Virus record (IMG/VR): IMGVR_UViG_3300032323_000879
Coordinates: 1 to 31,112 of that record
DNA: 31,112 nt
Source: a virus
Direction: 5' to 3' (one strand)
Below the pieces are notes generated by a model. The model was given only the letters and a program-made list of their open reading frames with translations, had not been told where the DNA came from and searched no databases. The translations under genes were made by a program, and so were the position numbers. Numbering within the stretch: the stretch's first letter is position 1; every line of letters starts with the position of its first letter. Below, piece after piece: positions 2,780 to 31,089 of the stretch.

Positions 2780-3196
2780 TTAGCCTATTACTGGTGGTTT
2801 TACAATTGGAGGTACTGCAACTTTAGGTACTGCTACTGTAGGAACTGTTGGTGCTGATGCTACAACAGGAGCTGGAGTAGATGCTACTGTTGTTGGAGTA
2901 GTTGATGCTCCTGCAACTTTCTCTTGAGTTCTACCATATGCTGCGATACCGAGGACTGCGCCCATTGCAATATGATATAATCCTGCACCTTGCAAAGTAA
3001 TAGGTTGCCATTGTGTTTTTACTTCACCGCCACCAATTACTTGAACGACTGACCATAGTACTGGAAAGATTACAAAGTCTGCGATACACGTAAGCATGTA
3101 TGACCATCCCATCATTGGGCGCCATTTACTATTCATCCAGTCTTCTTTTTTCTTTTCTGAATCACTCATATCTTTATAATCTTTTTCTGCTGACAT
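2780..3196 (-). CDS. holin, GTA 3-TM-like
   Basis: A 138-residue membrane protein. After a charged N-terminus (about 1-25) comes W-RP, then a hydrophobic stretch at about 28-56, and a second hydrophobic segment at about 70-88 ending AAYGRTQEK. This RP...(Y)GRTxEK layout is what I know from the GTA_holin_3TM family, which releases gene transfer agents and some phages. A low-complexity Ala/Pro/Val/Thr tail (about 95-138) follows. The start ATG 3196 has a strong AGGAG (3210-3206) that overlaps the stop of the frameshift extension upstream. Its position inside a tail assembly operon is unusual; it could alternatively be a membrane-associated tail or injection protein. Confidence 0.65.
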   Translation of the reverse strand: MSAEKDYKDMSDSEKKKEDWMNSKWRPMMGWSYMLTCIADFVIFPVLWSVVQVIGGGEVKTQWQPITLQGAGLYHIAMGAVLGIAAYGRTQEKVAGASTTPTTVASTPAPVVASAPTVPTVAVPKVAVPPIVKPPVIG

Positions 3197-3208: not shown

Positions 3209-3400
3209 CTAGTGTTTGTTGTTAAGTCGTTTAATACGTTCATTCTCTTCTTTAACATAATCTACTAACATAGCAATATAAATTTCTCTCTCCCACGGCA
3301 ACATCTCATCCAATTCAGTCAAACTATATTTGTGATGCTGCATCATAATAAAGTTAGCTCGGTAATAATTTTCCAAGCTATCGTGTGAGAGAGCTACCCG
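3209..3400 (-). CDS. -1 frameshift extension of the gp26-like protein (chaperone-type fusion)
   Basis: In the -1 frame directly after the slippery heptamer T TTT TTC (3406-3400, minus strand), 63 codons are open up to TAG 3211-3209. The peptide begins RVALSHDSLENYYRANF, contains LTELDEMLPWEREIY, and ends in a charged helix rich in Lys, Glu and Arg. It fills the whole 197-base gap between the gp26-like stop and the holin. An internal ATG (the MMQHHKYSL start) could also give a separate small protein. Siphophage and P2-like tail assembly chaperones are made by exactly this kind of shift just upstream of the tape measure gene. The fusion would be about 297 residues. Confidence 0.65.
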   Translation of the reverse strand, partial: RVALSHDSLENYYRANFIMMQHHKYSLTELDEMLPWEREIYIAMLVDYVKEENERIKRLNNKH

Positions 3401-4101
3401 AAAAAACTTTCTAATCCCTCAAGATGTACGTGGTTGTCTTTGCCACAACTAGTACATTTAAAATCAATATCTTTCTTTAGTTTTGGTAATCCACTAAAGA
3501 AGTCTTTAATTTTTTCAAATTGTGCTTTATTTAAAGATTCAATAAAGTCAACTAACTCTTGTTTTGTTTGTGTAGCTACATCATACACGTTTTCTGTATC
3601 AAAGATTTTATCGATACACGCCATGATAATAGCATATGTATTTTCAGTATCGCTTTTCTTAGGATCGATACTTCTCATAACTAAATCAGAACTTGGATAT
3701 TTCATAATTACGCCAATTTGATTAGTCAACATAATCTTTAGTTCTGGTAGTGATGATACGTCTATCTCAATTGACTCTAAATCAATATCTAATTCGTTAC
3801 TAGTTTTACAATCAGTACACTTTAAACCAATGTGTGATTTCTCACCAACTGCTTTAGATCTTAACTTTAGGAAAAGATATTCTAATTCAGCAACTGGTAA
3901 ATCTTTACCATCAACTTTACCAAACGTGCATGTACTAACGATATCATGCATCGCTCTCATGATTTGCTTTTGGTCTTGCGACTCTAAAGCCATCAATAAT
4001 ACTTTTTCTTCTTTCACTAAGAACGGACGATATGATACTGTCTTCTTACTTAGTGGTAATTCAACTTCATACGTTGGTGTATTTAAAATAGGTAGTGCCA
4101 T
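3394..4101 (-). CDS. 26: gp26-like baseplate hub/assembly protein with two CxxC pairs
   Basis: 235 residues from ATG 4101, preceded by GGAG (4110-4107); an in-frame TTG at 4113 would add four residues but lacks that site. The sequence fits the T4 gp26 baseplate family (T4 gp26 is 208 residues): an N-terminal LPxxxxxVSYRPFLVKEEK region and a zinc-ribbon-like pair of CxxC knuckles at 95/98 and 216/219. It ends ESFFG then TAG, and the Phe-Phe codons form the U UUU UUC slippery heptamer. Some ribosomes should therefore make a longer protein. Its place after the tube-fold gene and before holin and tape measure fits a tail assembly role. Confidence 0.75.
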   Translation of the reverse strand: MALPILNTPTYEVELPLSKKTVSYRPFLVKEEKVLLMALESQDQKQIMRAMHDIVSTCTFGKVDGKDLPVAELEYLFLKLRSKAVGEKSHIGLKCTDCKTSNELDIDLESIEIDVSSLPELKIMLTNQIGVIMKYPSSDLVMRSIDPKKSDTENTYAIIMACIDKIFDTENVYDVATQTKQELVDFIESLNKAQFEKIKDFFSGLPKLKKDIDFKCTSCGKDNHVHLEGLESFFG

Positions 4102-4122
4102 AATATTCTCCAATGAATAATT

Positions 4123-4782
4123 TTATAAACCAAATGACTGCAATGTTCTTCCTGCTGAGCCCAAAAGTACTTTACCTTTAGACAATACTGATTCGACAAA
4201 TCCTTCCTGTGACCAATCTTCATATGTAAATGTCACAGATAACTTTTGAAACTGATTTTCACCAGTATTTGTTAAGTCATATGACGAAACTGTAATTGGA
4301 TATGCATTTCTTAACGTACATGTGTAAACTGGAACATCTCTTTGATCCAATTGTTGTATAATTACATCTGTTGCGTATGAAGAACGATACTTCATAGTCA
4401 TTTTACGGCGATCAAATATGCTATCAGTCCATCTATCGAAGAATTTTTTCATAAAATGATCGTTTGTGATGTGAAATGACATCGTAACATCATCATTAAT
4501 GTAGTTATACGGCATTTTTAATGACAACATGTTGTTTGACAGCTCTGTTGTTGAGACTTGACGACCCGGCATTGTCACAGAATCACACAAAATTGATATA
4601 TCTCTTGGATCATTTACAAATTGTCTATTTCCATTTGCAGTATTGCCTCTATCAAACGCTCTAGCAATCAATTCTTGTGGATCGAAACTAATTAATGGCA
4701 GTGGCATATACACAGCGTAGCGATTTGTTGGTGCTAATCCGCCGCGTTTGCTAACAAGTGTCTTAAAATTATCTACGTTCAT
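4123..4782 (-). CDS. tail tube-fold baseplate protein, gp54-like
   Basis: 219 residues. The C-terminal part, with NAYPITVSSYDLTNTGENQ then a VTFTYEDW strand, resembles the end of T4 gp54 (CIPISVSSPELSYDGDNQ...VTFAYR). The middle (VTMPGRQV, then MPYNYINDDVTMSFHI) fits the gp19/gp48/gp54 tube fold. The likely role is nucleating tail tube polymerisation on the baseplate. T4 gp54 is about 320 residues, so this is a short version; a tube subunit or another tube-like cap is possible. ATG 4782 overlaps the upstream gene's TGA (ATGA). Confidence 0.6.
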   Translation of the reverse strand: MNVDNFKTLVSKRGGLAPTNRYAVYMPLPLISFDPQELIARAFDRGNTANGNRQFVNDPRDISILCDSVTMPGRQVSTTELSNNMLSLKMPYNYINDDVTMSFHITNDHFMKKFFDRWTDSIFDRRKMTMKYRSSYATDVIIQQLDQRDVPVYTCTLRNAYPITVSSYDLTNTGENQFQKLSVTFTYEDWSQEGFVESVLSKGKVLLGSAGRTLQSFGL

Positions 4783-10008: not shown

Positions 10009-11268
10009 ATGGCAAACTTACCTTCTCCTTGTGGGTTAAGTGCTTCCTTAGATGAAGCACTATCTCAGATTGATACTTTAAAACAAAAGATTTCTGGTGG
10101 ATTAAATTCTATTGGAGATCTTGGTGCAATTGCAAATTCGATTAAAGAAAAACTTGGTGAGATTAAAGTTCCTGAAATTCCAGAGTTAGATTTACAAACT
10201 GAATTAGCATCTTTACCATATCTTTCACCTGCTGAATATACTGCAAAAGTTGCTCAATTAAAAACTATATTTGGAAGTAGCGTTGAAAATCTTGATAGTT
10301 TAATTGATAAAATACCAAAGCCTCCAACATTAGCAGCATCTTCTGAAAATTTAGTTGAACAACTAAAAAATCTTGCTGCTGGAAAATTACCAGACACACA
10401 GTCTATTATAGATGCTTTAACTCCTGAAGGTATTGCTAAGGCTATTGGTGATATGTGTAAAGATACACCAAAAGTTGTGGTTGTAGTTACTACAGATGAA
10501 AGTGGAAAAGAAGTTATTGGTCCAGTTCAAACTAAACCCGAATCTACTCCAACGCCAACAAAGAATCCAGAAAAAGAAAAAACACCATCACCTCCTCCAG
10601 CTGGTGGATTTACTTTTGCTTTTACCAAAGAAAAATTAGAAAGAGCTGGTGGAGCCGCTGCAGCAGCATGGTATGATGCGTTTGCAATAACTCTTCCAAA
10701 GTATGGAATAACTACACCAGATAGAGTCGCTGCGTTTGTTGCGCAAATTAGAGTTGAATCTGGAGACTTTAAAGCACTAAAAGAAAATTTAAATTATAGA
10801 GCCAAAGGATATTTTGCAATCTGTGCTAATAGACTTAAACTGTCTGCAGTTGAAGATTGTGCTGTATATTTACAAACAGAAAAACAGACTGCAACTGGAT
10901 TATATGAAAGAGCGATAGGTTCTTCAACTATTCACAATGTTGGTAGGAATCTTGGTAACACAGAAGTTGGTGATGGCCATAAGTTTATTGGTAGAGGTTT
11001 AAAACAATTAACTGGTCGTTTTAATTATACTAGAGCTTCTAAAGATTTATATGGCGATGATAGATTAGTTAAAAATCCAGATTTAGTTGCAACTGATAAA
11101 CAAGTTGCGCTTGAAACCGCTTGTTGGTTTTGGTCTAAAAATAATTTATCAGCCATTGCAGATTCTTGGGATATTACTACATTATCTAAAAAAGTTAATG
11201 GTGGAACTATAGGTTTAGATAAACGTATTTTATATAGTGATCAAGCCCGTACTATCATGAAAGCTTAA
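10009..11268 (+). CDS. tail-associated GH19 muralytic protein
   Basis: 419 residues in three parts: a helical N-terminal region (1-150), a Pro/Thr/Lys-rich linker (about 175-200), and a C-terminal GH19 chitinase/lysozyme-like domain (about 205-419). GH19 signs are FVAQIRVESGDF with the probable catalytic Glu 250, KENLNY with Glu 259, and GRGLKQLTGRFNY (328-340). The usual His before the first catalytic Glu is Val here. The N-terminal part has no signal peptide and probably docks on the baseplate, since the gene sits between gp5 and gp25. Likely roles are local peptidoglycan cleavage during DNA entry or, as an alternative, the lysis endolysin. Confidence 0.8.
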   Translation: MANLPSPCGLSASLDEALSQIDTLKQKISGGLNSIGDLGAIANSIKEKLGEIKVPEIPELDLQTELASLPYLSPAEYTAKVAQLKTIFGSSVENLDSLIDKIPKPPTLAASSENLVEQLKNLAAGKLPDTQSIIDALTPEGIAKAIGDMCKDTPKVVVVVTTDESGKEVIGPVQTKPESTPTPTKNPEKEKTPSPPPAGGFTFAFTKEKLERAGGAAAAAWYDAFAITLPKYGITTPDRVAAFVAQIRVESGDFKALKENLNYRAKGYFAICANRLKLSAVEDCAVYLQTEKQTATGLYERAIGSSTIHNVGRNLGNTEVGDGHKFIGRGLKQLTGRFNYTRASKDLYGDDRLVKNPDLVATDKQVALETACWFWSKNNLSAIADSWDITTLSKKVNGGTIGLDKRILYSDQARTIMKA

Positions 11269-22429: not shown

Positions 22430-22939
22430 ATGATTACTCATGATGAAGTTGTAGAGTTTCTCCACAACCCTTTGGCATACGAACAAAATCTAGTTTCAAA
22501 GATAAATTCTAAGGGGGAGCAAATCCTCCTTAGTTCGTTTAAAGATCTGTATGATAGTGAACCACGCAGCATTAAGATCGAAGGCATGGAAAGATTCTCA
22601 AAAAATGTTTGGGAAAAATGCTTAGAATATGGAAGAATATATAATCATATAGGACCAGTGACGTGTCATGTTTTCTTTGCATATGAAAACTCTCCATCAT
22701 TTGATATGCACACTGATCCAGACGATGTTATAATATATTGTTGTAGTGGCAAAAAAACTATGATAATTGATAATAAACATCATACTATAAATGAAGGTGA
22801 AAGTGTTTACATTCCAGCAAATACTTTTCATCAAGCCTTAAATGAATTTGCTGCAGTAACTTTAAGTTTTGGTTTAGAAAAATTTTTGAAAGATAAAGCT
22901 ATTAATTATGAATTGGGCATTATATCTAAAGACTACTGA
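22430..22939 (+). CDS. JmjC/cupin-like Fe(II) oxygenase
   Basis: 169 residues with a double-stranded beta-helix pattern. Candidate Fe(II) ligands are H94 and D96 in DMHTDPDD (an HxD motif) and H134 in YIPANTFHQALN. Strands IIYCCSGKKTMII and the EGESVYIPA turn fit JmjC-type 2-oxoglutarate hydroxylases that act on protein or peptide side chains. It is short compared with cellular JmjC enzymes, so a metal-binding cupin without hydroxylase activity is the alternative. It overlaps the first radical SAM gene by 32 bases and follows the fibre gene by one base, so the two functions are probably linked. Confidence 0.6.
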   Translation: MITHDEVVEFLHNPLAYEQNLVSKINSKGEQILLSSFKDLYDSEPRSIKIEGMERFSKNVWEKCLEYGRIYNHIGPVTCHVFFAYENSPSFDMHTDPDDVIIYCCSGKKTMIIDNKHHTINEGESVYIPANTFHQALNEFAAVTLSFGLEKFLKDKAINYELGIISKDY

Positions 22940-23966
22940 AACATGCAATTTAAATTGCAAGCATTGTTTTACTAATGGTACCAATGGTCCTAAAATATTT
23001 TGGGATACGAAGAAAGTTACAAATTGGTTAACACGATTCCTTCAATACGTTCAAAAAGACGATATAGTTCATTGTGAATTTCATGGGGGAGAACCATTCT
23101 TAGTTCCAGTATTTCAAATGGAGCAAATGTTTGAAGAATGCAATCATTTACATGAAAACGTTTCATGGGGAGCTACATCTAATTTAGTATTCAAATTATA
23201 CGATGAGCACATTGATCTTATAAAAAATAAATTTAATTTTAGAATAGGTACTTCTTGGGATCCAAAAATTCGTTTTGCTAATAATAAACAATATGAGTTA
23301 TGGCATAAAAACATAAAAACGCTATTATCACATGGTATAACAATTAAGCTTTTTATTAGTGTTACTCAAGACACATTAGACATTGAACCAATCGTATTGC
23401 TAAGATGGATACGTAGACTAGGCGTTCAAGAAGTTTCATTTGAAAGATTAACTAATAATGGTAATGCAAAGCTTTATCCTGACATTTTTCCAAAAAATAT
23501 AGAGCAGGATAAATGGTTCTTAAAAATGCATGAACAAATTGTTAAGTATAACACTAGAAATTGGTTTTCAAATGAATTCTTTGAAACGATTTATGCTAAA
23601 TTTGAGTCAGGTTTTATAAAAGGTTCTACATTCTGTAGAGATTGTGAAGAAAAGATTCTTACATTAAATGCAAATGGATCTATATCTGGTTGTCCAAATT
23701 CAGCACCTGAATTTCAGTTTGGACATATAGATGATAAGATTGAAGATTTAATGTCGTCTCCAAAAAGAATAGAAAACATTGCGTGTGAAAGAAGTAGAGA
23801 TCCTAGATGTTATAGTTGTGATGTATTTGAATATTGTGGAGGTGACTGCCATCAATTGCAATGGCAAGATGATATATGTGGTGCACCAAAAAGTTTAATG
23901 CGTCATTTGTCAACTCTTACACATAAAAAGACTGTGATAAAAATAAAAAGCATCCCCCATGTTTAA
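22908..23966 (+). CDS. radical SAM/SPASM protein maturase A
   Basis: 352 residues. The radical SAM cluster motif C13-x3-C17-x2-C20 (TCNLNCKHCF) and the GGEP SAM-binding motif (60-63) define the TIM-barrel domain. A C-terminal SPASM domain (about 240-330) has Cys at 243, 246, 262, 301, 304, 310, 314 and 324, with LTLNANGSISGCP and CxxCx5CGGDC, enough for auxiliary [4Fe-4S] clusters. SPASM enzymes such as anSME, AlbA and PqqE modify peptides or proteins. It starts inside the oxygenase gene and overlaps the next radical SAM gene by 8 bases, implying coupled expression. The substrate is inferred to be the CHxS-tailed protein at 24971. Confidence 0.88.
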   Translation: MNWALYLKTTETCNLNCKHCFTNGTNGPKIFWDTKKVTNWLTRFLQYVQKDDIVHCEFHGGEPFLVPVFQMEQMFEECNHLHENVSWGATSNLVFKLYDEHIDLIKNKFNFRIGTSWDPKIRFANNKQYELWHKNIKTLLSHGITIKLFISVTQDTLDIEPIVLLRWIRRLGVQEVSFERLTNNGNAKLYPDIFPKNIEQDKWFLKMHEQIVKYNTRNWFSNEFFETIYAKFESGFIKGSTFCRDCEEKILTLNANGSISGCPNSAPEFQFGHIDDKIEDLMSSPKRIENIACERSRDPRCYSCDVFEYCGGDCHQLQWQDDICGAPKSLMRHLSTLTHKKTVIKIKSIPHV

Positions 23967-24960
23967 TGCATATGAGCGTTATGGTGATCCATATAAATTA
24001 GTTGAATTTAGAATGATGATATTGAATCATTGTTCTATGGATTGTCGTGGTTGTTTTTATAAAAGAACAGATAATAATTTTAATGATTTTTCTTCAGCCT
24101 ATAAGTTGGCTGAAGATTTAGTTAATAACGATTATAAACTTGAAACGTGTTATTTACTTCCAACTGACATTTTTGATAATCCAGACAATTATAAGTTATT
24201 AGATAACAAAGACTTTCAAAATACATTAAAGATGTTTTCATACGTTGGAATTGCATCAACAATAGAAACTGAGTTTGATCATAACTTTTTTGAACTTATT
24301 AATAATATTAGCGCAGAATTAAAAATTGAATTGCAAATTAATTTATTAATTGCAAAACTCTTTGACATAAATTATCAAATTATTTTAAAAAGTAGAATTA
24401 AAGCTATTAAAGAAAAATACGGAGATAGGATAGTTATTAACTTAGCAATTAATACGGGATTTTCATTAAGCAATAATGAAAAGGAAAAACTAAAGTCTTT
24501 AATTAGCTTTTTATCAGATGATGAAATAATAGAACTAAATTTTACTTTCTTATATAATAAAGAAATATCTTTAGATAAAAAGAAAAATATGTTAAAAGAA
24601 AGCATAAAAATCATTAATGAATTTGGTGATTTTTATGAATCAAATAATGAATTCAAAACAAAATATAATAATAGAACATTATTAAGAAAACCAGCTTTTT
24701 CCTTTGTTGGTAATCCAAATAGAATATATTTAAATCCTATTATACCATTTGACGAATATGTGTATATTGATGATGCAGCATTTTTAGTCGACGGGACAAC
24801 ATATGATGATTTTTTAAACACATATGGACAATTGCAAGATATAAATAGTACAATATTAGACAAGTGTAATAACTGTGATAATCTTAGTCATTGTCTTGGT
24901 AAAAGTTATTTTACAATTGCAAATAAATTCGATTTAAAATGTTTTATGGATATAAACTAA
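23959..24960 (+). CDS. divergent radical SAM protein, short C-terminal Cys set
   Basis: 333 residues. The radical SAM motif is C25-x3-C29-x2-C32 (HCSMDCRGCF). No GGEP-like motif is obvious. The C-terminus has C303-x2-C306-x5-C312-x15-C328, probably one auxiliary cluster, which is smaller than a full SPASM domain. The middle is Lys/Ile/Asn-rich. It is coupled to maturase A by an 8-base overlap and is immediately followed by the CHxS-tailed protein. The protein at 28900 shares the same Cys layout (x16 instead of x15), so the two form a distinct subfamily here. Exact chemistry unknown. Confidence 0.75.
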   Translation: MFNAYERYGDPYKLVEFRMMILNHCSMDCRGCFYKRTDNNFNDFSSAYKLAEDLVNNDYKLETCYLLPTDIFDNPDNYKLLDNKDFQNTLKMFSYVGIASTIETEFDHNFFELINNISAELKIELQINLLIAKLFDINYQIILKSRIKAIKEKYGDRIVINLAINTGFSLSNNEKEKLKSLISFLSDDEIIELNFTFLYNKEISLDKKKNMLKESIKIINEFGDFYESNNEFKTKYNNRTLLRKPAFSFVGNPNRIYLNPIIPFDEYVYIDDAAFLVDGTTYDDFLNTYGQLQDINSTILDKCNNCDNLSHCLGKSYFTIANKFDLKCFMDIN

Positions 24961-24970
24961 AGGGCTTTTT

Positions 24971-25600
24971 ATGGCTAGTGCTGGTAATTTAGTAACTAAA
25001 CAAACTATTATTAATGATTTTTTCGCTACTGTTATAGCACCAGCTCCAAGAGCAAATGCTTGGCACAAAGCTAACATTCCAACATTTAATTCTGCGTTCA
25101 GTGGTGCTTGGGGAACATTTGACCATAGGGTAACTGTTACTCCTTTTTCAATTATAGGTGCTACTACTCCGTCTGGAACTGTTGTAGATGTTTTAACGGA
25201 ATCGACGACTGGAATGTCTGCTCCTTCACAAGCTGATTTAAATACGATTAATATAACGGCAAGTAATATTGTTTCTGTATTAAGAAATTATGCGTATAAT
25301 ACTTCTCGTGTTAGATTAGTTCGCGCTGGAATATATTATAATAATACGACATATGGCGGAAGTGGAGTTTTTAATGAGCAAGTTAATTATGCGCATTTAA
25401 ATGATAATTACCTACGAACTGAACCGTTGAATGTCGCAGGTCCAGTAGTAAACCAAACTATCATTGCAACTCAACTTGATAATTTTTATAGCTCACTTAG
25501 ATCTGCAGCAAACACTGACACATATGGTGATATTTTAGATTTACGCATATGTCATCAATCATGTCACTATTCATGTCATAGTTCTAGAGGAAGAAGATAA
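24971..25600 (+). CDS. small structural-like protein with C-terminal CHxS repeats (putative modification substrate)
   Basis: 209 residues. The first 190 are Ala/Thr/Asn/Ser-rich and beta-like, resembling a phage structural or fibre-tip subunit, and contain no cysteine. All three cysteines lie in the C-terminal repeat CHQSCHYSCHSS (194-205), followed by a basic RGRR end. The repeats are [C-H-x-S] three times, so the tail also reads as three His-x-Ser units, like the targets of the bacterial His-Xaa-Ser (Hxs) radical SAM systems. It lies between two pairs of radical SAM genes. I infer that it is their protein substrate, with the tail as the modified core. A metal-binding tip is the alternative. 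AAGGG (24960-24964) precedes ATG 24971. Confidence 0.7.
   Translation: MASAGNLVTKQTIINDFFATVIAPAPRANAWHKANIPTFNSAFSGAWGTFDHRVTVTPFSIIGATTPSGTVVDVLTESTTGMSAPSQADLNTINITASNIVSVLRNYAYNTSRVRLVRAGIYYNNTTYGGSGVFNEQVNYAHLNDNYLRTEPLNVAGPVVNQTIIATQLDNFYSSLRSAANTDTYGDILDLRICHQSCHYSCHSSRGRR
25550..25585 (+). repeat. three tandem 12-bp repeats encoding CHxS
   Basis: Units at 25550-25561, 25562-25573 and 25574-25585 each encode Cys-His-x-Ser. The Cys codon is TGT in all three; His is CAT, CAC, CAT; the variable residues are Gln, Tyr, Ser. The mix of silent changes and kept residues suggests selection at the protein level. Confidence 0.85.
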
Positions 25601-26659
25601 ATGTTTCACCTATTTAATTCAGTCTATATAGACTTTGATTTTTGCTTTGAGCCAATGGGTAAGGATTTTATATTAGCATCTGATATTTTTGGTAGTATGC
25701 CAATGGTAACAGTGCAGAACAATGAGGCGTATAAATCTCAGCCTTCATTTGAAGATTTAATTAAAGAAAGTTTTTCTAATAACAAAGAACTCTTATGGAA
25801 AAACTTAATTAATAGATCTAAAAAAGTTGTTTTATATGTAAAACCTGAAAAATTATATGAACTACAAATTGAGTTTTTAAAAAGTGTGTTTGAATATGCT
25901 GAATGCAAAGATTTATATAAAATACATGTTTCATTTATTGAAAGCATAAGACTAAGATCGTATTATGAAGTTCGTGATAAAGATTCTCGTAAGCAAATAA
26001 TTTTAAACACAATTCACCCATTACAATATGCACAGTTTGAAGAAATTTATAATAACACGGAGATATCTAAGACGTTGCAAAGGGTAGATAAAACTGCTTT
26101 ATCTTTTGAATACTTATTAGCAGATTACTTATACAATTCTTCAACAAAATATAAACATGCACTATTATCTAAAATAGAAGTTATGACTTGGGATAATTGG
26201 TTAGATGAATTAGAACAATTGAAATATGAAATCATATTTGGTTCATTAAATTTGAATCGCATAGACCCAAATTTAAGTTTAGAGATCGGTAATATTGAAG
26301 AACAATTGTCAAATAGTGATACATTAAAATGGGCCGTTGATCGTAACTTTACACACAATAGAAAATATATAAAATCTACATACGATTATAAAACGTTTGA
26401 TCCACTATGGAAAGACATATATGAAATATACTCCGGTCAAGAAAAAATGGATGATTTGAACGAATTGATTAATACAAATCAATACGAAAAACTACTTTGG
26501 CGTGACATTGATAGGGGTTTTGGTTGCACATACACCGGTGAAATGTTTAAAACTAAATCTAACCACGTATTTGCAACGTATTGTTACACCGTAGTTAAAT
26601 CAGAAAATAAAGATGAATTAGCACCATTTAGATTAGATGATACAAGTAATCAAAGTTGA
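25601..26659 (+). CDS. unknown protein of the radical SAM block (352 aa)
   Basis: 352 residues starting directly at the base after the CHxS gene's stop. I recognise no domain. It has a FCFEP segment near the N-terminus, a helical middle rich in Lys/Glu/Leu (about 45-125), a HPLQYAQFEE stretch, and an aromatic C-terminal part (LLWRDIDRGFGCTYTGEMF, about 302-320). There is no cluster-type Cys motif and no membrane segment. It overlaps the next oxygenase gene by 23 bases. Its tight linkage suggests a leader-binding, scaffold or chaperone partner of the maturases, but that is position-based inference only. Confidence 0.65.
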   Translation: MFHLFNSVYIDFDFCFEPMGKDFILASDIFGSMPMVTVQNNEAYKSQPSFEDLIKESFSNNKELLWKNLINRSKKVVLYVKPEKLYELQIEFLKSVFEYAECKDLYKIHVSFIESIRLRSYYEVRDKDSRKQIILNTIHPLQYAQFEEIYNNTEISKTLQRVDKTALSFEYLLADYLYNSSTKYKHALLSKIEVMTWDNWLDELEQLKYEIIFGSLNLNRIDPNLSLEIGNIEEQLSNSDTLKWAVDRNFTHNRKYIKSTYDYKTFDPLWKDIYEIYSGQEKMDDLNELINTNQYEKLLWRDIDRGFGCTYTGEMFKTKSNHVFATYCYTVVKSENKDELAPFRLDDTSNQS

Positions 26660-27071
26660 GATACCAGAAACATTATTAAATTTAGTTGATAATTTTGATG
26701 ATGATGGTTTAAGAGATTTCCTCGGTGCATTTAATTACACCGAGGAATTTCAGTCTTGGGCTAGACGATATATTGTATTTGATAAATTAGTAAAAAATTG
26801 GATTAACTATACTAAGTACGATCTTGTAACTGATAATTCTTTCACATGGCATGACGATATACATAGAAAAGGATCTACTTTAGGTATATTATGGTTAGAT
26901 GGTTCTATTGGATATGGTGGTGATCTTTTAGTCATGGATGATAATTGCGAAATACATCGCATAATATTTGAACCAAACACACTAATTATTATGGAGAATA
27001 AATTCCCGCATAAGGTAGAACATTATTTTGGAAGTGAACCAAGAGTTGCGTTGAATTTTACACTAAAATGA
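26637..27071 (+). CDS. 2OG-Fe(II) oxygenase, prolyl 4-hydroxylase-like
   Basis: 144 residues. Predicted facial triad: H72 and D74 in FTWHDDIHR and H125 in KFPHKVEHYF; R136 (GSEPRVALNF) is the expected 2-oxoglutarate anchor. Strands LGILWLDGS and GGDLLVMDD fit the P4H fold. Such enzymes are common near fibre genes in marine T4-like phages and hydroxylate protein side chains or small molecules. It overlaps the next radical SAM gene by 4 bases, mirroring the oxygenase/SPASM order at 22430-22908, although the two oxygenases belong to different subfamilies. Confidence 0.75.
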   Translation: MIQVIKVEIPETLLNLVDNFDDDGLRDFLGAFNYTEEFQSWARRYIVFDKLVKNWINYTKYDLVTDNSFTWHDDIHRKGSTLGILWLDGSIGYGGDLLVMDDNCEIHRIIFEPNTLIIMENKFPHKVEHYFGSEPRVALNFTLK

Positions 27072-28192
27072 ATATATTTACAAATGAGTTTAATGTTATC
27101 TATGTAAGAGTAGTACAGGGATGTAATTTAAATTGCACACACTGCTTTACATTAGGTAATAAAGATCCATATATGCTTACTAATATGACATATATAAAAG
27201 ACTTTTTATCTTCTATAAAAGATAATGTCGATCCTCAAAAGGCTACATTTTATATTCATGGTGGTGAAACATTCCTTGCGCCATTTTCCCATTTATCAGA
27301 AGTTAATAATACGATTAGATCCATTTTTCCGGAAATGAAAATGGATATTATACCCCAAACAAATTTATTGTATAATATTGATGATGAGTTTATAAAATTT
27401 CTTAAAGATGAATACAGATCTACAGTTGGAGTATCTTGGGATGCAGACATTAGATTTGGATCAATTGCAATTAACAAGAAAACTGATCAAGAAAATTTGT
27501 TTTTTAATAACTTAAAAACTTTACTACAAAATGACATTAAAGTGCATATATCAATTACTGCACAAAAGCATTTATTGAATTACGACCCATTAGAAATTGT
27601 AAAAATGTTTGATGGAGTAGATTCTATTGATTTTGAATTATTAACTACTTTTGACGAGCAAACGCGCAATTTAAAACCTAATAACAAAAAGTGGGCTATT
27701 TGGTTAGAAAAGATTGTAGATTATTATCAACATAATAAAACTACGTGGTGTTTACCTCAAATTGATCTTTTTACAAAAACACTATTAACTGGTAACCTAT
27801 TTGATTGTAAGTGTAATTGTTGCGATAAAAGAACATTCACATTAAACCCAAATGGTACTGTAGGTTTATGTCCAGATAAAACGTATGTTGAACCATTTTC
27901 AAATACTGAAGAAATGAGAAATAACTGGGATACGTTCCAAGAAAAATCATTAGATGTTATGATGAAAAAGCTTATAGAAATGGATCAACATACTATGTGT
28001 TTTACATGCGAGCATTACGACATTTGTGGAGGTAATTGTGACGCTAGTCTTTTCGATGAAACTGACGAGTGTCCATTATCAAAAAGCGTTATAAGTAAAA
28101 TAAGAAATAATAAAGAAGTATTCATAAAACTTTATGAAGAAAAAGCAAAAGTGAATTTAACTGAATTAAGGACGAATTATGAAATACATTAA
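27068..28192 (+). CDS. radical SAM/SPASM protein maturase B
   Basis: 374 residues. The radical SAM motif is C19-x3-C23-x2-C26 (GCNLNCTHCF), with HGGET (64-68) in the GGEP position. The SPASM region (about 245-340) has Cys at 247, 249, 251, 252, 268, 311, 314, 320, 324 and 335, with FTLNPNGTVGLCP and CxxCx5CGGNC. It is clearly paralogous to maturase A: shared CNLNCxHCF, HGGExFL, SWDxxIRF, NxNGxxxxCP and YCGG/ICGG blocks. It overlaps both neighbours (4 bases upstream, 14 downstream). It probably modifies a protein or peptide; the second copy may act on another residue or another substrate. Confidence 0.88.
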   Translation: MNIFTNEFNVIYVRVVQGCNLNCTHCFTLGNKDPYMLTNMTYIKDFLSSIKDNVDPQKATFYIHGGETFLAPFSHLSEVNNTIRSIFPEMKMDIIPQTNLLYNIDDEFIKFLKDEYRSTVGVSWDADIRFGSIAINKKTDQENLFFNNLKTLLQNDIKVHISITAQKHLLNYDPLEIVKMFDGVDSIDFELLTTFDEQTRNLKPNNKKWAIWLEKIVDYYQHNKTTWCLPQIDLFTKTLLTGNLFDCKCNCCDKRTFTLNPNGTVGLCPDKTYVEPFSNTEEMRNNWDTFQEKSLDVMMKKLIEMDQHTMCFTCEHYDICGGNCDASLFDETDECPLSKSVISKIRNNKEVFIKLYEEKAKVNLTELRTNYEIH

Positions 28193-28898
28193 TGCTGTTG
28201 CTCCAATAGCAATTGATCAAATTAAAGAATATTTCAAAGATAAGAATACACTATTTGTTATTGACTATAACGAAAGCAAACTACAAGATAAAGTGTTTTT
28301 AACATATCTTTCAAATTTAGATATACCGTGCGACATTAATCTTGATACTACACCTAAAGAAAAAGTTTTTCAATTGTTAGCCTCGTATGTTGATATTAAA
28401 AACATTTGCAATATACCTTTATTGAACGTAATGATAGCGGAAATTATTTTAAAATCCGTTGGTGTAAATTCTAATATTATTTTTTCTAAAGAATATTTTA
28501 CTAATGAAGAAATTTACACATTCATTGAAAATAATAGAAATAATCTTGTTAAATGGATTGATTTTATCGATTCATCAATGGTATTTTTACTTTATAGTTA
28601 TAAAGATTTAAATGAAAAATTAAAGGTTGAAGAATCGTTCCCAATCGTAGATGATCATAACTATGTGGGTTTAAATGTAGTAAATTTATTTAAAATTCCT
28701 GGATTTTTAGAATTATATTTTTCATCTACAAAAGAAGTTAAAATGCTTTACTTTAAACAACAATTTGAAACATACATGTTTAAAGGTAAAGCGTTCTTAG
28801 AATACTACAATAATAATGTTAATGTATTTGTTCCATTATTAGCAAAATTAATTAGTAAAGAATTACCATTAGAACCACAATTCGATATTGAGAAATAA
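28179..28898 (+). CDS. unknown protein of the radical SAM block (239 aa)
   Basis: 239 residues; ATG 28179 is preceded by AAGGA (28168-28172). It is hydrophobic and Asn/Lys/Ile-rich, with cysteines at 53 and 78 that form no motif, and helical stretches such as NIPLLNVMIAEIILKSVG (about 79-96). No domain recognised. It lies between maturase B and the second short radical SAM gene with minimal spacing, so it is part of the same operon. It might be an accessory or substrate-binding subunit; there is no direct evidence. Confidence 0.65.
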   Translation: MKYINAVAPIAIDQIKEYFKDKNTLFVIDYNESKLQDKVFLTYLSNLDIPCDINLDTTPKEKVFQLLASYVDIKNICNIPLLNVMIAEIILKSVGVNSNIIFSKEYFTNEEIYTFIENNRNNLVKWIDFIDSSMVFLLYSYKDLNEKLKVEESFPIVDDHNYVGLNVVNLFKIPGFLELYFSSTKEVKMLYFKQQFETYMFKGKAFLEYYNNNVNVFVPLLAKLISKELPLEPQFDIEK

Positions 28899-28899
28899 T

Positions 28900-30003
28900 A
28901 TGGATGCATATTTAGCTTCTGGAAGTTTAAACGAATCTAATACGTTTTATTTTAATTTAAACTTTGAATTATTAAATGGTTGTCAATTTAACTGTAAAGG
29001 TTGTCACGTCAATAAAAATGGTTCTATGCCAATTGACGATACTAGTTATGCGCAGTTACAAAAGATAATGAATTCGTTTACTCCAGAAAATTCATATAAA
29101 CCATTCATTGCGTTCATAGCTCCTACAGATTTCTTATCTGCAAATAATACATATTCAGTTTTAACTGATAAGCGTGTCATTGAAATTTTAAATAAGTTTA
29201 AAAGAATTTCATTTCAAACCACATATTTGGACATGTCTAAAGCTAGTTTAGTAGCTGACGTATTAAAAGATCATTACTCTAATATGGAGTTAGAAATTAA
29301 CGTAATTATTGAACCGGATAAAATCGAAAATCAAAAATATCTTAGCGTTCTTAAGAAACACCAAGATGAAATGATTGAGTTATTAAAATGGCCTACGAAA
29401 GTAAGATCATTTGGTATTATGAATGTATACGACTACGATAACACCAAATTAGCTCATATATTAAAAGATTATGATTACTTACATCAAAAAGTAAAACACT
29501 TATTCGAAACTACAATTGATTTTAATTTTTCACTAGGTAGAAAAGATCAAAGTTTAACTAAAGAAGAGTTTGAAGATGCAACGAAGAGAATTAAAAACAT
29601 GTTTAATAGTTCTCTAATATCTACTGAAAAAAGTGGTTATTTAAGATTTTCATTTGGTCGATTAAACGACTCATTGGTTGAACGCCAATACAACTGGAAA
29701 AATGGAGAGTTTTATTATTCTCCTCTTTTATATGAAAGATACGTATCATTTGTTGATGAACTTAAAATGCCTATTAATGACTACACTGCAAAAGAGTTTG
29801 AAGAGTTTGAACAGGATGTGCAATTACAACAATATCTCAACGTTTCAGACAAAACCGAATGTGAAGATTGCGCAATGTTAGGTTCATGCGTTGATCGTGG
29901 AATTTTACATTTAATGGATATTCACGGAATAAAAGATTGTTTAGTCGCTAAAGAAGCAATGAGCGTAGTTAACGTTATGGGTACACTCCCATATAATGAC
30001 TAA
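28900..30003 (+). CDS. second divergent radical SAM protein, short C-terminal Cys set
   Basis: 367 residues from ATG 28900, two bases after the previous stop; an in-frame TTG at 28888 lies within the preceding gene and is less likely. Radical SAM motif C28-x3-C32-x2-C35 (GCQFNCKGCH). The C-terminus has C321-x2-C324-x5-C330-x16-C347, the same unusual arrangement as the protein at 23959. A GGEP motif is not evident; IAPTDFL occupies the matching region, as LLPTDIF does in the paralogue. It is probably a radical SAM enzyme working with maturase B. It overlaps the next gene by 8 bases. Confidence 0.78.
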   Translation: MDAYLASGSLNESNTFYFNLNFELLNGCQFNCKGCHVNKNGSMPIDDTSYAQLQKIMNSFTPENSYKPFIAFIAPTDFLSANNTYSVLTDKRVIEILNKFKRISFQTTYLDMSKASLVADVLKDHYSNMELEINVIIEPDKIENQKYLSVLKKHQDEMIELLKWPTKVRSFGIMNVYDYDNTKLAHILKDYDYLHQKVKHLFETTIDFNFSLGRKDQSLTKEEFEDATKRIKNMFNSSLISTEKSGYLRFSFGRLNDSLVERQYNWKNGEFYYSPLLYERYVSFVDELKMPINDYTAKEFEEFEQDVQLQQYLNVSDKTECEDCAMLGSCVDRGILHLMDIHGIKDCLVAKEAMSVVNVMGTLPYND

Positions 30004-30694
30004 CTTAATTGATTTAGCGTATATTGACGATCTCGAGTATGCTAAAATTATATTATCATCTGGAGATTATTTTCCTGGATTCTATAGGTTTACTATGGGA
30101 ACTAGGAAATATGATCAAGGGCAAATGACAATTAGTGGTTTATTAAAGGCATATTTTAATCAACCATTAACGTATGGTGAATTGATGAACTATCCTTGCA
30201 AGCGATTAGAAGAACTTGATGATCGTTTAAAAGGTAGATCTGATTTAGCAGTTTATGAGTTACTTGATGAGAAGTATAAATCTTGGATGCTTCATGCAAA
30301 TGAATACGATTTAGTTTTATTAGAAAAACATAATCTAAAAGATTTAGAAGTTGATACAACGTATTTCTTTATGGGCGCACTAATACGGTTTACAAAAGAT
30401 TCAATTTTACTTGGTTATGATGATTATAGAAAAACTACAATTGAAACTATTAATGCCCCTTTTACATTTGTAAAAGATTATGTTTCAAAGATCTATAGTA
30501 ACTTTAGCGATTTGTTTATTCCAGCAGAAGTTATTGGAACTATTATAATTGATGAGTTAGTTACAATAGATATTGATATTAAAAAACTTTTAACCACAGA
30601 TAATAGTAACGTAGTATTTGGTTCTAATCGAGATGCATCAAAAAATCTTTCAATGCGTTGGGCTAAAGATATTTGTTTTTCGGAAATAGAATAA
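29996..30694 (+). CDS. unknown protein of the radical SAM block (232 aa)
   Basis: 232 residues beginning MTNLIDLAYIDD. It overlaps the upstream radical SAM gene by 8 bases and the downstream start by one base (ATAATGA). The N-terminal half contains FYRFTMGTRKYDQGQMTISG; the middle is helical and Glu/Leu/Asp-rich (about 50-115). There are only two cysteines and no motif. I recognise no family. Operon position is the only clue to function. Confidence 0.65.
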   Translation: MTNLIDLAYIDDLEYAKIILSSGDYFPGFYRFTMGTRKYDQGQMTISGLLKAYFNQPLTYGELMNYPCKRLEELDDRLKGRSDLAVYELLDEKYKSWMLHANEYDLVLLEKHNLKDLEVDTTYFFMGALIRFTKDSILLGYDDYRKTTIETINAPFTFVKDYVSKIYSNFSDLFIPAEVIGTIIIDELVTIDIDIKKLLTTDNSNVVFGSNRDASKNLSMRWAKDICFSEIE

Positions 30695-31089
30695 TGAATG
30701 ATTTTATTCGTAATGATAGTCATATAACTTCTTGCACTATAACTAATGTTAAATCTAATGGTGATGCAACTATTGAGTTTGCGCACTTTAAAGAAGCAAG
30801 ATATGATGTATCTTATATTGTCATTTATGAATATGAACATGAGTATTATTATCCTATGGTCTTAGAATATAGACTAATAGATAATAATATATTGTATTTA
30901 ACTGAAGAGTTAAATATAAAAACTGCTAGTGAGTTATTTAGAGTACTAAGTTCTTCTATGGAAAAGGAAGAGAAATGGACTAATGAATTTAAATTAGCGT
31001 TAGTACATTTAAAGAATAAACCTAAAAGATGTTTTAAACTTAATAATTTTATAGTTAATAATGTAGACACCACACACGTGTATGAGTGA
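30694..31089 (+). CDS. unknown small protein (131 aa)
   Basis: 131 residues from ATG 30694, whose first base is the last base of the preceding TAA; an in-frame TTG at 30673 would extend it into the upstream gene and is less likely. The N-terminal half is Tyr- and beta-rich (YDVSYIVIYEYEHEYYYPMV, about 38-57); the C-terminal half is helical and basic (KLALVHLKNKPKRC). No known domain. It continues the tightly packed block. Confidence 0.6.
   Translation: MNDFIRNDSHITSCTITNVKSNGDATIEFAHFKEARYDVSYIVIYEYEHEYYYPMVLEYRLIDNNILYLTEELNIKTASELFRVLSSSMEKEEKWTNEFKLALVHLKNKPKRCFKLNNFIVNNVDTTHVYE

Follow-up and report, generated by a model that had tools for sequence, protein, structure and literature searches.

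A conserved slippery heptamer and a predicted −1 frameshift joining gp26-like and gp51-type sequences in T4-like phages

A single gp26-like gene of an uncultured marine T4-like phage very probably gives rise to two tail assembly chaperones, a short one and a long one, through a programmed −1 frameshift just ahead of its stop codon. The gene lies in the 31,112-base record IMGVR_UViG_3300032323_000879 (positions 1 to 31,112), which is referred to here as the window. Two products sharing a common N-terminal part are predicted from the reading frames and their conservation, and the interpretation as a frameshifted chaperone gene draws on four observations: conservation of a slippery heptamer, the missing start codon of the downstream frame, colinearity with T4 gp51, and a comparison of protein folds.

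The gp26-like gene (positions 3394 to 4101, minus strand) encodes a 235-residue protein from an ATG at 4101 that is preceded by GGAG, and the open reading frame can be extended upstream to a TTG at 4113. Its product matches the T4 gp26 family profile PF12322 (T4_baseplate; E 1.9e-64, scoring 217.8 bits against a curated cut-off of 24.5), as well as phrog_150 (E 1e-65). The 3′ end of the gene reads GAA AGT TTT TTC GGG TAG and contains the heptamer T TTT TTC (3406 to 3400, minus strand), with the 0-frame TAG (3396 to 3394) one codon beyond it, a spacing that is identical in 97 of 124 representatives of the related loci described below. The −1 frame runs from CGG (3400 to 3398) to a TAG at 3211 to 3209 on the same strand, giving an extension of 63 codons plus stop (3209 to 3400) and a predicted long product of 297 residues (234 + 63). 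Downstream is a holin-like gene (GTA_holin_3TM, PF11351, E 6.4e-07; 2780 to 3196, minus strand) starting with ATG at 3196. A sequence-only reading of this region had described a heptamer placed before the gp26 stop, a well-formed −1 frame of 63 codons, and an extension that fills the gap up to the holin, and each of these descriptions is borne out.

The neighbouring genes are also on the minus strand. Upstream of gp26 is a gene for a tail-tube-like protein (4123 to 4782; PF23849, E 5.9e-07; PF06841 gp19, E 6.7e-07; phrog_3629 tail tube), and two genes downstream is a gene for a 535-residue protein (1171 to 2778) that is a candidate tape measure, weakly identified and mainly by position. It has a sub-threshold match to Tape_meas_lam_C (E 0.097) and shares its place with a gene annotated as tape measure in Caulobacter phage Cr30, with only E 0.016 to the Cr30 protein. 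We note that the chaperone gene is separated from the candidate tape measure gene by the holin-like gene, which is of the gene-transfer-agent type.

To gather related loci we used protein similarity and never the heptamer itself. A first set contained 160 loci from viral_contigs plus the window, and a second contained 135 loci (84 from viral_contigs and 51 from genome_contigs), 134 of which were counted after locus L299, which begins inside the extension, was dropped. Three viral_contigs searches were each capped at 80 loci, the best among at least 600 matches, which biases the viral sample towards close relatives. In genome_contigs the extension profile matched these 51 loci and no others. 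Distant gp26 seeds recovered two viral_contigs loci with Cr30, two with phi-pp2, and none with X1. The sequence-only reading had proposed an alignment across T4-like genomes as a check, and the outcome is uniform: the −1 extension and, ahead of the gp26 stop, an in-frame T TTT TT run are present in 161/161 loci of the first set, and the same arrangement is present in all 134 second-set loci with both parts. Combined, 295/295 loci, including the window, have the extension and T TTT TT(C/T/A) just before the gp26 stop. Because the viral_contigs searches overlap, the 238 distinct sequences among these loci are a better count than 295; 203 of them are under 85% identical and 98 are under 70% identical. 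The 203 sequences use TTTTTTC (126), TTTTTTT (60), or TTTTTTA (17). Separately, loci L269 to L319 are T4-like phage contigs in bins labelled Euryarchaeota, Thaumarchaeota, Chloroflexi, Planctomycetota, and others, labels that are most likely binning errors; one of them, 188 kb long, belongs to the assembly of Nonlabens xiamenensis strain 1Q3.

Conservation of the heptamer is not simply conservation of amino acids, because the residue ahead of the Phe-Phe pair varies (Ser in 68 of the 124 representatives, Asn in 28, Asp in 24, Ala in 3, and Gly in 1) while its codon always ends in T and the first Phe codon is TTT in 124/124; TTT makes up 74% of Phe codons in gp26. In 13 representatives Phe-Phe has become Phe-Leu through TTA, with the heptamer retained. 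Phe-Phe pairs elsewhere in gp26 are written T TTT TT in just 8 of 108 cases, and the 28 open reading frames of the window (9,843 codons) contain four such in-frame runs. Under the codon usage of the gp26 body the heptamer pattern has a log10 p of about −45, a value that treats the representatives as independent and is hence overstated. Judged from these codon choices, a 0-frame X XXY YYZ heptamer ahead of the stop is kept beyond amino acid need. A run of T is present in all loci, and slippage during transcription rather than translation, yielding a mixed mRNA population, would lead to an identical long product. However, the run is six T in 99 representatives, seven in 17, and eight in 8, all below the run of nine A/T for which bacterial transcriptional slippage is described in the relevant part of PMC5009743; moreover, the phase and form of the heptamer are fixed, and a Shine-Dalgarno-like element (see below) is favoured at the spacing of −1 ribosomal shifts. 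We therefore regard transcriptional slippage as scarcely credible, and retain ribosomal frameshifting as the preferred reading.

The extension itself has the properties of a coding region. It matches phrog_634, annotated as baseplate hub assembly catalyst (gp51-type; E 3.4e-26), and also phrog_150, the gp26 family profile, at its C-terminal end (positions 235 to 277 of 282). Searching with the extension by tblastn returned 648 phage records at E values up to 1, and in the 60 best rows the matches start at extension residue 1 or 2; its length among relatives is 57 to 70 codons. Within the first eight residues of the extension the window has no start codon; its first possible start is a TTG at 3376 whose preceding 20 nucleotides lack a purine-rich ribosome binding site. 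An ATG, GTG, or TTG is usable at or before residue 8 in 22 of the 124 representatives (16 with ATG) and absent in 102. Residues 2 to 18 lie ahead of the first Met in most relatives, and their divergence at −1-frame codon positions 1, 2, and 3 is 0.357, 0.263, and 0.553, which is the pattern of translated sequence. By this measure the extension is a real coding region, with coding sequence in the −1 frame ahead of any possible start.

The missing start codon and the heptamer conservation together support the programmed −1 frameshift proposed in the sequence-only reading, and they bear directly on whether the extension might instead be a separate small gene (gp51) with its own start codon or translated by re-initiation after the gp26 stop. 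It is annotated as a separate gene in GenBank, for example in Mosig and P-SSM2, and some relatives could express it in that way. Besides the 16 representatives with an early ATG, the heptamer-bearing phages P-SSM2 and S-PM2 have an ATG at extension residue 4, and phi-pp2, TCU-VP04, and Cr30 have a TAATG or TGATG overlap alongside the heptamer, such that a free small protein is possible in P-SSM2, S-PM2, phi-pp2, and Cr30. Four distant relatives, the Ackermannviridae phages IME250, PS5, and phiDP10.3 and the Vibrio phage K452 (loci L171, L172, L174, and L175), carry the −1 extension with no heptamer; these are the only cases of the two frames without a slippery sequence, which the earlier reading had named as one form of contrary evidence (the other being a separate start codon with its own ribosome binding site), and they have a stop/start overlap instead. 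The junction is TAATG in Dickeya phage phiDP10.3 and K452, and TAATT in PS5 and IME250, which suggests that re-initiation operates in these four phages, perhaps from ATT at TAATT. As an account of the window and its closer relatives, however, a separate gene is highly improbable: the window offers no start by residue 8 and no recognizable ribosome binding site for its first TTG, the 102 representatives that lack an early start nonetheless evolve at residues 2 to 18 as −1-frame codons, and re-initiation would not select T TTT TT(C/T/A) while the amino acids change.

Frameshifting at the heptamer likely has an upstream stimulator. The sequence GAGGG (3416 to 3420, minus strand), a candidate Shine-Dalgarno-like element, lies 9 nt 5′ of the heptamer, and Shine-Dalgarno-like sequences stimulate −1 shifts at spacings of 9 to 14 nt, as described in the part of PMC5009743 that deals with them. 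Codon choice at this site is skewed. Where Glu occupies codon −4 (75 representatives), it is written GAG in 50, compared to 643 of 2,640 among the remaining Glu codons of gp26 and to 17 of 68 where Glu precedes Gly at another place in the gene (Fisher p 5e-7 for the latter comparison); among the 59 representatives under 70% identity the corresponding values are 27/37 and 6/30. The sequence-only reading had pointed to a weak downstream AGCT/AGCT pairing as the stimulator, and an 8-bp hairpin with this pairing does exist (3355 to 3380, minus strand), beginning 19 nt past the heptamer, but it is not conserved and is probably not the stimulator. Downstream RNA structure was rejected in this role because the best hairpins in the 124 representatives begin at scattered positions and alifold found no conserved 3′ structure among them; hairpins starting 4 to 10 nt from the heptamer with −6 kcal/mol or better are present in only 10 of the 124. 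The region past the heptamer folds somewhat more readily than controls from the gp26 body (mean z −1.0 to −1.45 versus −0.29 to −0.58).

The predicted long product, the gp26-like part followed by the extension, has the layout of T4 gp51. In profile comparisons, the gp26-like part aligns with positions 6 to 199 of T4-type gp51 (Prob 97.2, E 3.1e-11) and the extension with positions 202 to 250 (Prob 95.6, E 1.1e-8), so by sequence comparison gp51 is colinear with gp26 plus extension. T4-type gp26 matches the gp26-like part (Prob 99.5) and not the extension (Prob 0.2).

The heptamer and −1 extension are present in 15 of 22 named phages tested, and these 15 span Kyanoviridae, the KVP40 group, Angelvirus, Cr30, SRB7757, X1, ACP17, Milchi, and EniLVp02. 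The seven phages without a heptamer are the four with proposed re-initiation and RB14 (T4 type), RB49, and Aes508, in which gp51 is encoded apart from gp26 and on the other strand. T4-type gp26 still has EFF followed by three residues at its C-terminus, with EFF written GAG TTC TTT. One reading of this distribution, to which we give roughly even chances, is that the frameshift, driven by the internal Shine-Dalgarno sequence and not by 3′ structure, is ancestral in the wider T4-like group and has persisted in T4-like phages of marine origin, in the KVP40 group, and in several deep lineages. The T4-type coliphages would then have swapped it for a copied gene, with gene 26 duplicated into a separate gene 51 and the heptamer decaying afterwards, and the Ackermannviridae would have swapped it for re-initiation. 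Frameshifting, gene duplication, and re-initiation would form a natural series of ways to meet one two-product requirement. In Campylobacter phage IBB_35, gp51 reads as a fusion of gp26 and the extension (Prob 93.0 for the extension part); this phage was left out of the 22, its gp26 gene being outside the stretch examined.

None of the 23 phage records inspected (one of them without annotation) shows gp26 as a joined gene. Several records start gp51 at an internal Met; in Mosig and Melnitz, for example, gp51 is annotated from an internal start (L163, 5768 to 5902; L181, 3055 to 3198), losing conserved N-terminal residues of the extension. Recognition of the joined arrangement would give T4-like marine phages a correct gene model.

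Structural comparison also bears on the chaperone assignment. A model of gp26 (pLDDT 94.9) was compared with 998 PDB chains, and the top three are 3fgx (Z 8.0), 2ob9 (HK97 tail assembly chaperone; Z 7.5), and 3klu (YqbN; Z 6.5), values in a range that is also seen for unrelated models; the next row is at 5.1. These three are phage tail assembly chaperones according to the pertinent section of PMC9603447, and they align at rmsd 3.7, 4.7, and 5.2 over 85, 86, and 89 residues, respectively, all within gp26 residues 1 to 99. The modelled resemblance of the N-terminal domain to solved chaperones is in line with the other evidence, and the Z values alone may be due to chance. Foldseek alone gave no PDB match to the gp26 model under E 0.001, and sequence searches of solved structures gave no relevant match for gp26 (best E 0.18 among three rows) or for the extension (best E 0.034 among 17 rows). 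The fold search with the extension gave a best Z of 3.2, from which no reading is drawn.

We propose that most ribosomes would terminate at the gp26 TAG and make the short form (TAC-N). A minority, presumably paused by GAGGG 9 nt upstream of the heptamer, would slip back one base with two tRNA-Phe on T TTT TTC, presumably at a low rate, bypass the stop, and add the 63-residue helical domain, yielding a long form of gp26-gp51 type (TAC-NC). If lambda G/GT is a guide, the tape measure protein would be coated by many copies of the short form and few of the long one, and the extension would recruit tail tube subunits. An alternative is that the frameshift is real and the products are chaperones of baseplate hub assembly, with a role other than coating the tape measure. 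T4 gp26 and gp51 are described as hub assembly chaperones in the corresponding part of PMC3004832, which reports that gp51 is essential, that its function is unknown, and that it is not part of the finished particle; the window gp26 also has an added part with two CxxC pairs, putatively zinc-binding, outside the region matched to the HK97 chaperone. On the other hand, tail assembly chaperone folds rank first in the comparison, the two-product frameshift scheme is that of tail assembly chaperones, and the gene is placed between the tail-tube-like gene and the candidate tape measure. We consider the hub role unlikely, and favor tail assembly chaperones.

The window has other features of note. 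A cluster at 22430 to 31089 (plus strand, as are all genes in this paragraph) resembles a peptide-modification cassette. It includes two proteins that are radical SAM/SPASM peptide-maturase-like by profile, with many matches far below equivalog cut-offs (22908 to 23966 and 27068 to 28192), two further proteins with CxxxCxxC near the N-terminus (23959 to 24960 and 28888 to 30003), and, between these, a 209-residue protein (24971 to 25600) with the C-terminus ICHQSCHYSCHSSRGRR, for which one viral_contigs scan found no relative. The cluster may resemble a His-Xaa-Ser system; the match of the 22908 to 23966 protein to HxsB is weak (33 bits against 370). In the structural gene region, a gene at 10009 to 11268 encodes a GH19 chitinase-like domain (PF00182, E 2.5e-12) and matches phrog_181 endolysin (E 5.7e-83).

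That gp26 and the small frame are the T4-like counterpart of tail assembly chaperones, as the sequence-only reading suggested, gains from the gp51 colinearity and the fold comparison, but it is not new. According to papers that cite it, Vladimirov, Gautam, and Davidson (2022, Virology 566:9-15) assigned tail assembly chaperone genes in T4-like phages. The 2024 PRFect paper cites this work for a short gene and a longer fused gene in some T4-like phages, and the 2025 Adele paper (PMC12846349) cites it for T-rich slippery signals in T4-like TAC-N genes. The chaperone assignment is thus already known, and the slippery site in some T4-like phages is probably known too. Among the open papers surveyed we found no description of the site in cyanophages or pelagiphages, and Vladimirov et al. 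2022 may contain one. The present analysis adds how widely the site is conserved across the marine lineage, codon-level evidence for the heptamer and for an internal Shine-Dalgarno sequence, a test for start codons, and a map of the three arrangements.

In the comparison with T4-like phages, the gp26 part is homologous to gp26, the extension has its homologue in the C-terminal portion of gp51, and the predicted long product has the gp51 architecture. The arrangement differs in that RB14, RB49, and Aes508 encode the long form in its own opposite-strand gene, whereas the window would use one gene and a −1 shift. The chaperone genes of Vandenendeviridae and Andersonviridae, as treated in the relevant part of the study of phage Adele (PMC12846349), similarly shift to the −1 frame at a T-rich site close to the end of the TAC-N gene, and their extension frame is open in all genomes aligned there; their conserved motif, however, is GTTTTT, and these phages belong to another lineage than the window. 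Escherichia coli dnaX, as outlined in PMC5009743, resembles the window in having a Shine-Dalgarno-like sequence 9 to 10 nt upstream of a homopolymeric heptamer, inside the 9 to 14 nt range. The window differs from dnaX in having a U run rather than an A run and no conserved 3′ stem-loop that could be detected. In P2, E/E′ comprise a short form and a −1 frameshifted long form from a gene near the tape measure. Lambda G/GT follows the same plan, with a short form, a −1 frameshifted long form, and a location near the tape measure gene, as set out in the lambda scheme of PMC5009743. The window gp26 is larger than these proteins and has the added CxxC-containing part; the likeness drawn here to lambda and P2 is one of scheme.
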